Assembly (NCBI GenBank): GCA_902762795.1
Contig: CACWPM010000002.1
Location: forward strand, 1 to 64,000
Source of the DNA: Fibrobacter succinogenes
GTDB taxonomy: Bacteria > Fibrobacterota > Fibrobacteria > Fibrobacterales > Fibrobacteraceae
Direction of reading: 5' to 3'
Length of the DNA: 64,000 bases
How positions within the stretch are numbered: position 1 is the stretch's first letter; every line of letters starts with the position of its first letter. A program made the position numbers and the translations under genes. Of the stretch, positions 32,617 through 52,106 are shown piece after piece. The notes under the pieces are model-generated. The model was not told where the DNA came from. It ran no database searches and saw only the letters and a program-made list of their open reading frames with translations.

Positions 32617-32711
32617 ACGAAAGAACGTTCGCTAAAGCGGGCTACAGACGAAAGGCTAGAGAGGGATGATTTATGATTTCTTTATTCTCTCGTCTTTCGT
32701 CTCTCGTCTAA
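32615..32711. repeat. AGACGAA/CTTTCGT inverted 7-nt arrays between convergent genes
   Basis: AGACGAAAGAACG, a small variable stem and CTACAGACGAAAGG stand on the left. CTCTCGT, CTTTCGT and CTCTCGT in register stand on the right (32687-32709), inverted to the left side. The element starts inside the patatin stop codon and ends at the mltG stop codon, with T-rich DNA beyond. A bidirectional terminator is plausible. Relatives at 39072 and 41733. Confidence 0.65.
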
Positions 32712-34301: not shown

Positions 34302-34396
34302 CAACTTCTAACTTTCCGACTTCTACCGCCTACTGCTTATAGCTTACTTCCTACTGTCTACTTCCTACTTCCAACTTCCTTCCGTCTACTCCCTAC
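34302..34396. repeat. 7-nt period array, CTACTTC type
   Basis: Thirteen heptamers stay in register (CAACTTC, TAACTTT, CCGACTT, CTACCGC, CTACTGC, TTATAGC, TTACTTC, CTACTGT, CTACTTC twice, CAACTTC, CTTCCGT, CTACTCC) plus CTAC. Units vary but the period does not. It lies between the terminator and the azlC promoter and has no coding frame of note. Confidence 0.75.
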
Positions 34397-39071: not shown

Positions 39072-39178
39072 AGACGAGAGAACGGACCTGAGGTCCTACA
39101 GACGAGAGTGGGTAGTGGCGAAGCTGTGTTGTATTTTTCTTTCGTCTTTCGTCTCTCGTCTCTCGTCTCTCGTCTAAT
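39072..39178. repeat. AGACGAG/CTCTCGT inverted 7-nt arrays between convergent genes
   Basis: Left side: AGACGAG, AGAACGG, ACCTGAG, GTCCTAC, AGACGAG in exact 7-nt register, with GGACC/GGTCC inside. Right side (39139-39175): CTTTCGT twice and CTCTCGT three times, inverted. It fills the space between the batA stop and the stop of the convergent gene. Same design as 32615-32711. Confidence 0.7.
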
Positions 39179-48478: not shown

Positions 48479-50758
48479 ATGAAGTTATTTTATTCTTTAT
48501 TGTTTGCGTGCACTGCCGCCCTGTATGCCCAGGTGGACGGATCCGTATATTCTACGTATAAGTCGCCTTTTGCGGAACAGGAAATGGTTGCGCCGGATCA
48601 GTTCCAGGATGCTGTTATTCGCGCTGCCCGTGCAAAGAAAACAATGAATGATATTTCTGTTTCTCAGAATCACCGTGATTTTGCCCGTGCCGCTTATTAT
48701 TATTACAGTGGACAATGGGATAGTGCCTATGCGGCTTACAATTCATTGCGCAAACGGGAACCGGAATTGCTTGGGAATGTTGTACTTCGCATGGCGCAGG
48801 CCAATTTTAAGCAGGAAAAGTACGCCAAGATGCGCGAGACGCTGCATTTGGAGAAAAGTCTTGAGAATGACAAGGCCTGGCGTGAAGTTGCCGATCGTTT
48901 GAGGATCGAGGCCACGATGGCGGATTATTCGCTGAATGATGTCGCTCGCGCGGATTCTCTGATGGTTTTCTTGGAAAGTAACCCGGATGGCGATGATGTT
49001 GCGCCGCTCAAGTATCGTTATGCCCGCTATTTGGAGGATTCTTACCAGCTGAAGCAGGCGAAGCGCCTTTATATGAAACTTTTGACAAGTCGCACTTCTT
49101 ACAAGGATTCTGCATACGCCTCTATCCGTCGCCTGCGCGAAGTGCTAGGGACGCCGGAATCGCTTGCCGAGAAGGTCGCCTATGCAAAGATGGCTTGCAC
49201 AAAAGACGAAATGAAAAACTGCTTGGATCTTTTGGATTCCATCCAGATTATGGATGCCCACCAGGCCCAGAAAAATCCTGCTTCTGTCGTGGTGCTTGAA
49301 GATCCTGCGTATGCGCGTCTGAAGAAGAGCACTCTTGAAATCAATACGCGCATTGTTCTATGGGAAAAACGCGCGGGTGCTTTACGGGCGCTGAACCGCA
49401 ACGATGAGGCCATAGAACAGTATCGTTACTTGATTGAAAATGTGGAACCGCGTCCGTCCTGGATTCAGGCTATTTTGAAACTTTACCGCAAGGAAGCGAC
49501 GGGGCTTTTTAATGAAGAAATCCATATGTATGATTCCTTGTTGCAGGATGTCAGCCAGTTCAGTAACGAAAATGCGAACAACCTTTGGCTGCGCGGCTTT
49601 GAATTTGAACAGAAGCTGATGTACGATAAGGCCATCGACTGTTATAAGAAACTTATCCATAAGCGTTTTAAGAATAACGTAAAACGTCAATGGGCGCGCT
49701 TCCGCATAGGCTATATCTATTTCAAGCGCGGCATGTGGACCGAGGCTACCGCTTATTTCCGCGAAGCGATTAGGGATCCGTTCTTGTGGAGCGGCAGTGC
49801 TTCCCGAATGTTCCTTGGCGATGCGTACATGAAAATGGGCGAAGATTCGCTTGCCCGCGAGGCGTATCTCGACTGCATCAAGGATTTTCCGCTTTCGTAC
49901 TATGCGCATCGCAGCCGCACCAAGCTTTTGGAAAACCGATTGATGCCTTCGGATAAAATCCCGTATGCGCATGGTGTGCCGATGTCCCATGCGGCAACTC
50001 TTGACTGGATCCGCTCCGTGAACAAGCTTGGCAAGGCCGATGCTTCGTATAGCAAGGAACGCTATGAACGTATCAAGAAACTCTTCTTGTACGGCTTTGA
50101 AGAAGAGGCGTTTAGATTGTACGAAGATGTCAAGAAGAAGAACTTCAAACGCCTCGATTTCCTTTACGAATACGGAAAGCTGTTCTATGAGATGGGCGAG
50201 ACCGCTGCCGGTTACAGGTTGGCGCGCCAGTTCCAGGCAAAAATGGATCGGCGCTTGTTGATGACCCCGCCGATCGATGTATTGCATTACTTGTTCCCGG
50301 TGCCATATGCCGATCCGGTTGTTTACCATTCGGGAAGCAATATCGACCCGTTCTTTGTGTATAGCGTGATGCGTCAGGAATCTATATTCGACTTCCAGAT
50401 TACATCGCCTGCGGGCGCCTGCGGCCTCTTGCAGATTATGCCTGCGACGGGCAAAATGCTTGCCGACAAGGAAGAAATCGCGAATTTCAATCCGAAGCGC
50501 CTGTACAATGCGTATATGAACATTCGTTTAGGAATTCGTTACTTGGTGGATCTCAAGGACGAATACAAGAACGATTACATGTACGTGCTTTGCAATTACA
50601 ATGCCGGTCCGAAACCGACAAAACGCTGGCAGTCCGAAAGCGAAGGCCTTCCGTGGGATTTACGCGTCGAAGAAATCAGCTACTGGGAAACCCGCGACTA
50701 TGTCAAGCGCGTTATGGGAAATTATTGGATCTATCAGGAAATATATCGGCAAAAGTAG
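48479..50758 (+). CDS. Lytic murein transglycosylase, Slt70-like
   Basis: 759 residues. Cleaves peptidoglycan to 1,6-anhydro products in the periplasm. A signal peptide ends near ALYAQ. A long alpha-helical superhelix with TPR-like repeats follows (for example FARAAYYYYSGQWDSAYAAY and RIGYIYFKRGMWTEATAYF). The C-terminal SLT domain (from about 615) contains the catalytic Glu in MRQESIFDF near 634, SPAGACGLLQIMP, and YNAGP. The start is the ATG at 48479, 17 bases after ptsI, without a good SD. The 7-nt array that precedes the S23 gene begins 11 bases after its stop. Confidence 0.93.
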   Translation: MKLFYSLLFACTAALYAQVDGSVYSTYKSPFAEQEMVAPDQFQDAVIRAARAKKTMNDISVSQNHRDFARAAYYYYSGQWDSAYAAYNSLRKREPELLGNVVLRMAQANFKQEKYAKMRETLHLEKSLENDKAWREVADRLRIEATMADYSLNDVARADSLMVFLESNPDGDDVAPLKYRYARYLEDSYQLKQAKRLYMKLLTSRTSYKDSAYASIRRLREVLGTPESLAEKVAYAKMACTKDEMKNCLDLLDSIQIMDAHQAQKNPASVVVLEDPAYARLKKSTLEINTRIVLWEKRAGALRALNRNDEAIEQYRYLIENVEPRPSWIQAILKLYRKEATGLFNEEIHMYDSLLQDVSQFSNENANNLWLRGFEFEQKLMYDKAIDCYKKLIHKRFKNNVKRQWARFRIGYIYFKRGMWTEATAYFREAIRDPFLWSGSASRMFLGDAYMKMGEDSLAREAYLDCIKDFPLSYYAHRSRTKLLENRLMPSDKIPYAHGVPMSHAATLDWIRSVNKLGKADASYSKERYERIKKLFLYGFEEEAFRLYEDVKKKNFKRLDFLYEYGKLFYEMGETAAGYRLARQFQAKMDRRLLMTPPIDVLHYLFPVPYADPVVYHSGSNIDPFFVYSVMRQESIFDFQITSPAGACGLLQIMPATGKMLADKEEIANFNPKRLYNAYMNIRLGIRYLVDLKDEYKNDYMYVLCNYNAGPKPTKRWQSESEGLPWDLRVEEISYWETRDYVKRVMGNYWIYQEIYRQK

Positions 50759-50769
50759 CTGCTAGTTCT

Positions 50770-50850
50770 GAGCTTAGAGCTTAGAACTTAGAACTTAGAG
50801 CTTAGAACTCAGAACTTAGAGCTTAGAACTCAGAACTTAGAACTTAGAAC
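50770..50850. repeat. 7-nt period array, GAACTTA type (left flank of the S23 gene)
   Basis: Eleven heptamers in exact register, all variants of GAACTTA (GAGCTTA, GAACTCA), plus GAAC. The reverse complement TAAGTTC appears in the array on the other side of the S23 gene at 51241. Confidence 0.85.
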
Positions 50851-50888
50851 ACTGTCTTCCTCTATATGTTTTAAGATGGTTTGTGCAT

Positions 50889-51257
50889 ATGGAATCGAAT
50901 TATAAGAATCTGGTTGTTTGGCAAAAGTCAATGGCATTGACTGTGAACATTTATAAAATTGTAAAGAAATTACCTAAAGAAGAGATGTTTGCATTATCTG
51001 ATCAAATGAGGAGAGCTGCTGTTTCTATTCCTTCCAATATAGCTGAGGGATGTGGTAGACGTTTACAAGGAGAGTTGAAGTATTTTTTGCGAATTGCGTG
51101 TGGATCTGCTGCTGAGTTAGAAACTCAAATGCAAATCTGTTTGAATCTTGGATATTTGCAATCCGAAGATATAGAAGAATCCTTGTGCTTATTGCATGAA
51201 GTTGAAAAAATGCTTAATTCTTTTATGAATTCTAAAAAGCTAAGTTCTACCAACTAA
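50889..51257 (+). CDS. S23-type four-helix-bundle protein
   Basis: 122 residues of the TIGR02436 family, known as the protein encoded in intervening sequences of some 23S rRNA genes and found alone in many genomes; molecular role unsettled. Hallmarks are NLVVWQKSM, ALSDQMRRAAVSIPSNIAEG, KYFLRIACGSAAELETQ and a final heptad-rich helix. I use the ATG at 50889; a GTG at 50883 is possible. The stop codon lies within the downstream 7-nt array. The gene is more A+T-rich than its neighbours and is bounded by inverted heptamer arrays, so it looks like an inserted unit. Confidence 0.9.
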   Translation: MESNYKNLVVWQKSMALTVNIYKIVKKLPKEEMFALSDQMRRAAVSIPSNIAEGCGRRLQGELKYFLRIACGSAAELETQMQICLNLGYLQSEDIEESLCLLHEVEKMLNSFMNSKKLSSTN

Positions 51258-51271
51258 GTTCTGCCAACTGC
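51241..51271. repeat. 7-nt period array, TAAGTTC type (right flank of the S23 gene)
   Basis: TAAGTTC, TACCAAC, TAAGTTC, TGCCAAC in register, overlapping the S23 stop codon. TAAGTTC is the reverse complement of the left-flank unit GAACTTA, so the flanks form inverted repeats around the gene. Confidence 0.75.
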
Positions 51272-51272
51272 T

Positions 51273-52106
51273 ATGCTATTCCTTCTTTTAACTATTGGTC
51301 CGGCGTTTCTTTTTGCCTGTGGAAACATTCTTGAAAAATCGGGCGTGTCCGCTGTGGGCAAACGCACGGGTGGCACGTCTAGGCCTTGGGAATTTTTCAA
51401 GGGTGTTATAACGAATAAATTCTGGTGGCTGGGCATCGGTTGCTCTGGGCTTGCGACGCTTGGCTATTACATTGCCATGGCGCAATACGACCTTTCGCAA
51501 GTGCAGCCGATGATGGTCCTCAATCCGGTGCTTACTGCGCTGATGGGTTTTTGCATCTTGAAAGAGGTCTTGACCAAGCGCATCGTGGTGGCGATTTGTT
51601 TTGTCGTGGCCGGGTTGCTGTATTCGGTCGAAAATTTGGGAGAATCGACTGCAGTGCAGAATATTGCCTCCCTTTGGATGTATGCGGGCGGGCTCTGTTT
51701 TGCGACGCTGATTGCGCACTTCTGGGTGAAGGATCGCGAAATGGTCGATTCGCTGATCATGGGGGTCGGTTTTGGGCTCTCGGCGGCATTTTACAAGAGT
51801 CTTGCGATGGATTTTGATCTCGACCACATTGAATTTGCATCTGTTGCGAACCTGCTTTTGGATTTTAGGACACTTGGCTATGTGGCGACTTACGGCATTG
51901 CGTTCTTGTATTCGCAGGTGTCGTTCTCTCGTGGGCGTGCGCTGTTCATTATCCCGTTTAGTGCTGCGGTCGGTGCTGCGGTCCCGACGCTTGCAGGGGC
52001 GTTGGTTTTCTATGAAGCGTTCCCAATTGGCAAAGTGGTTTCCGTGTCGCTCGTGTTGATCGGAGCGTGCATGTTTATCATTCGCCGTCCGAGAAGAAAA
52101 AAATAA
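51273..52106 (+). CDS. EamA/DMT-family transporter
   Basis: 277 residues with about ten membrane helices in two EamA repeats, as in the drug/metabolite transporter superfamily. The first helix starts at the initiator (MLFLLLTIGPAFLFACGNILEKSG). MAQYDLSQVQPMMVLNPVLTALMGF marks the end of the first repeat, and SFSRGRALFIIPFSAAVG the corresponding part of the second. The substrate cannot be told. The ATG follows the right 7-nt array by one base, so the array forms its ribosome-binding region and no SD is seen. Insertion of the S23 unit may have changed its expression. Confidence 0.85.
   Translation: MLFLLLTIGPAFLFACGNILEKSGVSAVGKRTGGTSRPWEFFKGVITNKFWWLGIGCSGLATLGYYIAMAQYDLSQVQPMMVLNPVLTALMGFCILKEVLTKRIVVAICFVVAGLLYSVENLGESTAVQNIASLWMYAGGLCFATLIAHFWVKDREMVDSLIMGVGFGLSAAFYKSLAMDFDLDHIEFASVANLLLDFRTLGYVATYGIAFLYSQVSFSRGRALFIIPFSAAVGAAVPTLAGALVFYEAFPIGKVVSVSLVLIGACMFIIRRPRRKK

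Follow-up and report, generated by a model that had tools for sequence, protein, structure and literature searches.

Inverted heptamer arrays frame an S23 gene in Fibrobacter succinogenes and recur at S23 loci in many bacteria

Main

The closest described counterparts of the locus analysed here are the intervening sequences of ribosomal RNA (rRNA) genes, in which an S23 open reading frame lies within terminal inverted repeats, in a unit of about 0.43 kb. These inserts are cut by RNase III, and their origin has been open since 1990 (PMC4990558). The insert of Coxiella burnetii carries tandem heptamers (GACAGAT) before the S23 frame and has a 28-bp terminal stem; its S23 frame is reportedly probably unexpressed and degrading (PMC4990558), so the S23 protein is not always needed. 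A second point of comparison is provided by RAYT/REP systems, in which a gene for a Y1 transposase is framed by inverted copies of a palindromic, genome-dispersed repeat, with gene and repeat types matching.

Dispersed heptamer arrays have also been described in their own right, including GGGAATC arrays in Xanthomonas, often as convergent pairs (Rehm and others, PMC4692102), and TAACTGA arrays in Beggiatoaceae (PMC4679880), with the origin left open in both cases. Heptanucleotide arrays are reported as the commonest class, and slippage has been proposed for them (PMC4679880, introduction; Mrazek 2007 via PMC4679880). S23 is not named in the main text of PMC4692102 or PMC4679880, and we found no link between S23 genes outside rRNA and heptamer arrays in the open-access literature searched.

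Here we analyse an S23 locus in a 64,000-nt stretch of F. succinogenes DNA (GCA_902762795.1, contig CACWPM010000002.1), referred to as the window. The insert appears to follow the plan of rRNA intervening sequences, with its S23 frame enclosed by terminal inverted repeats, but it lies between two protein genes, its words are lineage-specific and dispersed genome-wide, and its S23 gene is under purifying selection. By its place it is not an rRNA intervening sequence: an Rfam search of the window gave no match, so the insert is not inside an rRNA gene. It resembles RAYT/REP systems in that the S23 gene is framed by inverted copies of a word dispersed in its own genome, a likeness that is weaker in the nearest-relative test below; it differs from them in that S23 is a four-helix bundle rather than a Y1 transposase and the repeat is a 7-nt array rather than a palindrome. 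Its arms share with the Xanthomonas and Beggiatoaceae arrays an intergenic position and a period of 7.

An S23 gene between inverted arrays

The initial annotation, made from the sequence alone, had described an S23 gene enclosed by inverted heptamer arrays between two protein genes, and this architecture is confirmed by tandem-repeat (TRF) and profile matches (Table 1). The gene belongs to the PF05635/TIGR02436 S23 four helix bundle family, matching PF05635 with E = 2.2e-38 (131.2 bits against a curated cut-off of 33.8) and TIGR02436 with E = 6.3e-38 (129.4 bits against 24). It is the only listed open reading frame of at least 50 aa wholly inside the insert, with an alternative start possible at a GTG at 50883. 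The eleven heptamers claimed for the left side are present. The claimed TAAGTTC-type array on the right does overlap the stop codon (TAA, 51255-51257), but it reads CTAAGTT CTACCAA CTAAGTT CTGCCAA CT and so holds just two TAAGTTC units, repeated at 14 bases.

Table 1 Features of the S23 locus and its neighbours, in window coordinates
Feature	Position	Strand	Remarks
Lytic transglycosylase (SLT) gene, upstream neighbour and left border of the site	48479-50758	+	PF01464, E 2e-20
Whole insert between transglycosylase stop and EamA start	50759-51272	+	514 bp; junction 2-4 bp in 29 of 73 genomes read
Left array of CTTAGAA-type heptamers	50773-50850	+	Period 7, 11.1 copies; TRF score 121
S23 (four helix bundle protein) gene	50889-51257	+	122 aa from ATG; PF05635 and TIGR02436 matches
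Inverted right array, in which CTAAGTT alternates with CTACCAA or CTGCCAA	51240-51269	+	TRF period 14, 2.1 copies
EamA-like transporter gene, downstream neighbour and right border of the site	51273-52106	+	PF00892, E 1.4e-06

The annotation had further proposed that the transcript could fold into a long hairpin, which is overstated for this copy. In the predicted RNA fold of the insert (minimum free energy −128.2 kcal/mol, z = −1.66, with 4 of 100 shuffles equally good) the left array pairs partly with the right array, and the stem remains partial because the two arms are unequal.

Inverted arms at S23 loci within and beyond the genus

PF05635 genes occur in 53 of 80 genomes of the genus, and all 100 loci listed were read. 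Within 130 bases around each gene end, the mean lag-7 score was 13.4 on the left and 15.7 on the right, compared with 3.0-3.8 at other lags (4-6 and 8-12), which thus show no such periodicity, and with 3.2 in control stretches 370-500 bases away. The heptamer varies from locus to locus (CTTAGAA, TTACTAG, GACGAGA, AGTAGGA, GTGGTTA, GGTATAG, GATAATG and others), yet at each locus the two arms match as reverse complements: the inverted match averaged 14.9, against 7.3 for the direct match and only 8.0 for arms taken from different loci. When longer flanks were read, 89 of the 100 loci had a period of 7 in one or both arms and 91 had inverted arms, with direct arms in 1 and neither feature in 2; no shuffled flanks (0/100) passed the period-7 or the inverted-arm test. 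At one genus locus (L142, genome G050), the right heptamer array doubles as coding sequence for the C-terminal tail of the S23 protein, giving NSELRT-like repeats.

The same arrangement is found in other bacteria. We read 80 pan-bacterial loci, the best-scoring of at least 587 confirmed and hence not a random sample of bacteria; they come from Clostridia, Bacteroidetes, Acidobacteria, Nitrospirae, candidate phyla, Proteobacteria and others. Lag-7 scores were 13.0 and 12.1, against 3.5-5.2 at other lags, and the inverted match of own arms was 17.4, against 9.9 direct and 8.1 between different loci. After two Fibrobacter loci were dropped, 78 remained, with period 7 in 58, period 7 or 8 in 66, inverted arms in 56, direct arms in 6 and neither in 7. 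Nine S23 loci have mainly period-8 flanks (L232, L237, L240, L252, L257, L259, L269, L292 and L293), and three have arrays in the same orientation on both sides of the gene (L303, L249 and L278).

A strict rule, under which both arms must be periodic and mutually inverted, was met by 72 of 100 genus loci and 37 of 78 loci of other bacteria. Control genes, picked by a simple open-reading-frame rule rather than from annotation, met it in 2 of 172 cases (0/44 in the window, 2/114 at pan-bacterial loci and 0/14 at genus loci). The generality of the arrangement is thus shown, and the initial annotation does not fall by the absence of heptamer arrays at other TIGR02436 loci, one of two observations that it said would refute it: arrays flank the majority of S23 genes, both within the genus and beyond it.

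The window locus taken alone could plausibly be a coincidence, because its word recurs at many other places in this Fibrobacter genome. A chance meeting of an S23 gene with the genome's own dispersed repeat is, however, ruled out by the matched arms at other S23 loci and by controls that lack them.

Plasmids gave 25 S23 matches, of which 13 were read, and a search of phage records gave none. The plasmid loci adjoin unrelated genes, as judged from annotations. On the Azospirillum lipoferum 4B plasmid, S23 lies inside a large-subunit (23S) rRNA gene (RF02541, 899 bits), a case found once among the 13. Its period-7 arms, divided into sevens by hand, read CAGAGGA CGGATGA CAGAGG before the S23 frame and CTGTCTT CTGTCAT CCGTCTT after it; the lag-7 score is only 4.0 on the left and 10.5 on the right, and the inverted match is 16.5. 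The likeness to rRNA intervening sequences proposed in the initial annotation therefore held, and this insert and that of Coxiella suggest a common plan for rRNA inserts and free units. On Pseudanabaena and Anabaena plasmids (L303 and L307), the S23 gene lies between cas6 and cas4 in CRISPR loci.

Empty and filled junctions

The EamA-like transporter gene is present in 76 of the 80 genus genomes. We took 77 transglycosylase–EamA junctions, of which 73 were readable. Beside the 29 that measure 2-4 bp, 16 measure 432-514 bp and hold an S23 gene, 1 holds a truncated S23 gene and 27 lack S23 and measure 6-255 bp, with other heptamer arrays in several of these 27. Five of the 16 S23 genes, from a divergent subfamily, were missed by tblastn and supplied by the PF05635 search. 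The site is empty even in close relatives, such as G047, at a protein identity of 95-96%. Presence–absence polymorphism is thus shown, and the second observation said to refute the initial annotation, synteny conserved in all relatives, was not met either.

At another junction, which precedes a LolC-like gene, the picture over 30 loci was similar: 3-7 bp in 11, 24 bp in 4, 452-480 bp with S23-type arms in 12 and unreadable in 3, with one S23 locus that was cut short counted neither way. The neighbours at other S23 sites were read from translated ends without family searches, and we take them to be LolC, lysS, map and ABC-F genes. Genus elements lie mostly between same-strand genes, and three shared junctions hold 68 of the 100 loci. 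Inspection of the junctions by eye gave no evident target-site duplication; empty spacers vary in length, most being 3 bp. The suggestion of mobility in the initial annotation is supported by inference, from presence and absence and from the occupation of one site by different S23 clades, and movement itself was not observed.

Three EamA junctions showed further forms. In G069 (L074), the truncated case, a 197-bp remnant keeps 36 residues of S23 along with CTTAGAA arrays, and 41 dispersed GAACTTA sites remain in the genome; in G030 and G032 the junction contains CTTCATC-type arrays without S23.

The heptamer follows the protein lineage

In a tree of 88 S23 proteins (built on few columns and with 19 open forks), heptamer words group with protein clades. 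Several S23 clades, each carrying a heptamer of its own, share one junction; at the EamA junction there are two subfamilies separated by a deep split; and the ACGAGAG clade is found at two junctions. A separate comparison used alignment scores and no tree. At protein scores of 0.65-0.80, 54% of pairs from the same site and 53% of pairs from different sites had heptamers alike at 6 or more of the 7 bases, whereas below 0.50 this held for 0-5% of pairs, and the protein–heptamer correlation, for same-site or different-site pairs, was reached by 0 of 300 permutations. Because agreement is equal at same and different sites, the word belongs to the S23 lineage and not to the place. Co-inheritance of protein and heptamer is therefore shown; it had been overlooked by the initial annotation, as had the variation of the heptamer among loci and its genome-wide dispersal.

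These results bear on two alternatives. In the first, neighbourhoods are exchanged by homologous recombination within the genus only, and arm-to-arm gene conversion keeps the arms alike. The concentration of genus loci at three shared junctions speaks for it, but it does not account for the same protein clade and word at two different junctions or for plasmid loci that adjoin unrelated genes, and we consider it unlikely. In the second, heptamer arrays arise everywhere by replication slippage and S23 genes are passive cargo. S23-less arrays are common in the genus, and the literature ranks heptanucleotide arrays as commonest and proposes slippage (PMC4679880). Slippage alone, however, does not produce two arms that mirror each other on either side of an unrelated gene, and it does not link a word to a protein lineage from site to site; other genes rarely show matched arms; this explanation is already disfavoured and we regard it as very unlikely.

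Dispersal of the word in carrier genomes

Counted as a 14-mer with up to 2 mismatches, the window's word occurs at 245 sites in its own genome, against 45 for a reversed control, and a 21-mer of it is present in 39 of 80 genus genomes. We counted four words in all 80 genomes, excluding copies at S23 loci. The 10 carriers of TACTTCC had a median of 95 copies (52-204), and the other 43 S23 genomes a median of 1 (p = 1.8e-6); TTACTAG had 41 in 5 carriers against 2 in others, and ACCACTA 85 in 6 carriers against 15. GAACTTA had 81 and 116 in 2 strict carriers against 0 in others, only two carriers passing the both-arms rule because the right array of the window copy alternates. Dispersal of the cognate word is thus shown.

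Kinship was allowed for by comparing each carrier with its nearest non-carrier: the carrier had more dispersed copies in 27 cases and fewer in 9, with 7 ties, or 21 to 6 with one case per partner (p = 0.003). This test counts either arm and admits weak carriers, such as G065, G070 and G044, in which some words have few dispersed copies or none. The result of the test is good but not clean. Weak support comes from the more complete genomes, in which those with S23 (n = 29) had a median of 65 and those without (n = 11) a median of 29 (p = 0.012). Some genomes have many dispersed words but no matching S23 gene, as with GAACTTA in G008 (144), ACCACTA in G028 (152) and TACTTCC in G067 (159). The dispersed arrays of the window's own genome are mostly solo, sometimes beside a second word, and among 31 loci read there was 1 clear inverted GAACTTA pair (a hairpin) without S23.

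The window itself holds further period-7 arrays without S23, at 34345-34396, 39138-39175, 32686-32709 and 2666-2693; they are of TACTTCC/TACTGTC, TCTCTCG and ACAGTAG types, some of them similar to words that flank S23 genes in relatives. The reversed control pattern for TACTTCC matched 63 times in G030 and 27 times in G032, where CCTTCAT is a dispersed word.

A third alternative is an RNA device, in which the paired arrays fold the mRNA into a hairpin, either as a substrate for RNase III or to tune operon translation, S23 binds this RNA, and the unit is inherited or lost but immobile. In its favour are the inverted arms at 91 of 100 genus and 56 of 78 other loci, the cutting of rRNA intervening sequences by RNase III (PMC4990558) and the partial pairing of left with right array in the predicted fold. 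Against it, the window fold reaches only z = −1.66, and the device leaves unexplained the dispersed S23-less words of the same type, the different S23 clades at one site and the 2-4-bp empty sites in close relatives. We judge it improbable.

The S23 protein and candidate partners

The window S23 gene has a dN/dS of 0.03-0.24 against relatives at 65-99% identity, and across 31 independent S23 pairs the median is 0.12, with values below 0.5 in 30 and above 1 in none; the protein is under purifying selection. Two relatives have solved structures, 2gsc (X. campestris XCC0516) and 2rld, and each entry contains five chains. Pfam and NCBIfam profile searches recognised no catalytic domain in S23, and the insert encodes no Y1 (HUH) transposase and no transposase domain that we could find. 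Avd of diversity-generating retroelements has a related four-helix fold, with only weak matches (32.2 bits against a curated cut-off of 80 for Avd and 28.9 against 40 for bAvd), and the reverse transcriptase of those elements is absent here: RVT_1 has no match in the window's own genome, although 18 of 80 genus genomes have one. A reverse transcriptase as a required partner is ruled out, with no RVT_1 in the own genome or in 38 of the 53 S23-bearing genomes, several of which are incomplete.

Discussion

We consider the window locus likely to be a copy of a widespread, pan-bacterial S23–heptamer element that is selfish and probably mobile, with rRNA intervening sequences as one of its landing sites. 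The putative element is about 0.43-0.51 kb long and would consist of a single S23 gene with an array of a 7-nt unit on each side (8 nt in some lineages), the two arrays being inverted relative to each other and the unit specific to the S23 lineage. It would enter tight gene junctions, and its unit would also be multiplied across the genome as S23-less arrays. Movement is inferred, as are all the workings proposed for it: S23 may recognise its own heptamer, as DNA or RNA; together with host enzymes, none of them identified other than by inference, it may help the heptamer to spread or grow; expression would be by read-through transcription; and the hairpin would keep the host transcript usable. 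The rRNA intervening sequences would then be copies that landed in 23S rRNA. Several points stand against this reading, namely unpaired dispersed arrays, words without a matching S23, direct-armed loci, loci with neither feature, and the absence of a transposase or target-site duplication.

In a bolder version of the element reading, S23 proteins make and spread bacterial heptamer arrays, each lineage writing its own 7-nt word with no recognisable transposase. We put this forward tentatively, as a possibility that the balance of evidence does not quite favour. If true, it would explain the excess of heptanucleotide arrays that has long been noted (Xanthomonas, Nostoc, Beggiatoa), and rRNA intervening sequences would be one product.

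The S23 gene has so far been known mainly from rRNA inserts; in many bacteria it has mirror-image heptamer arms, which points to a widespread, little-noticed and possibly mobile class of element. Three loose ends may be one: S23 annotations without a function, the origin of rRNA intervening sequences and the excess of 7-base tandem arrays (PMC4990558, PMC4679880, PMC4692102). The element also suggests a route by which small selfish elements may spread when no transposase or reverse transcriptase is evident.
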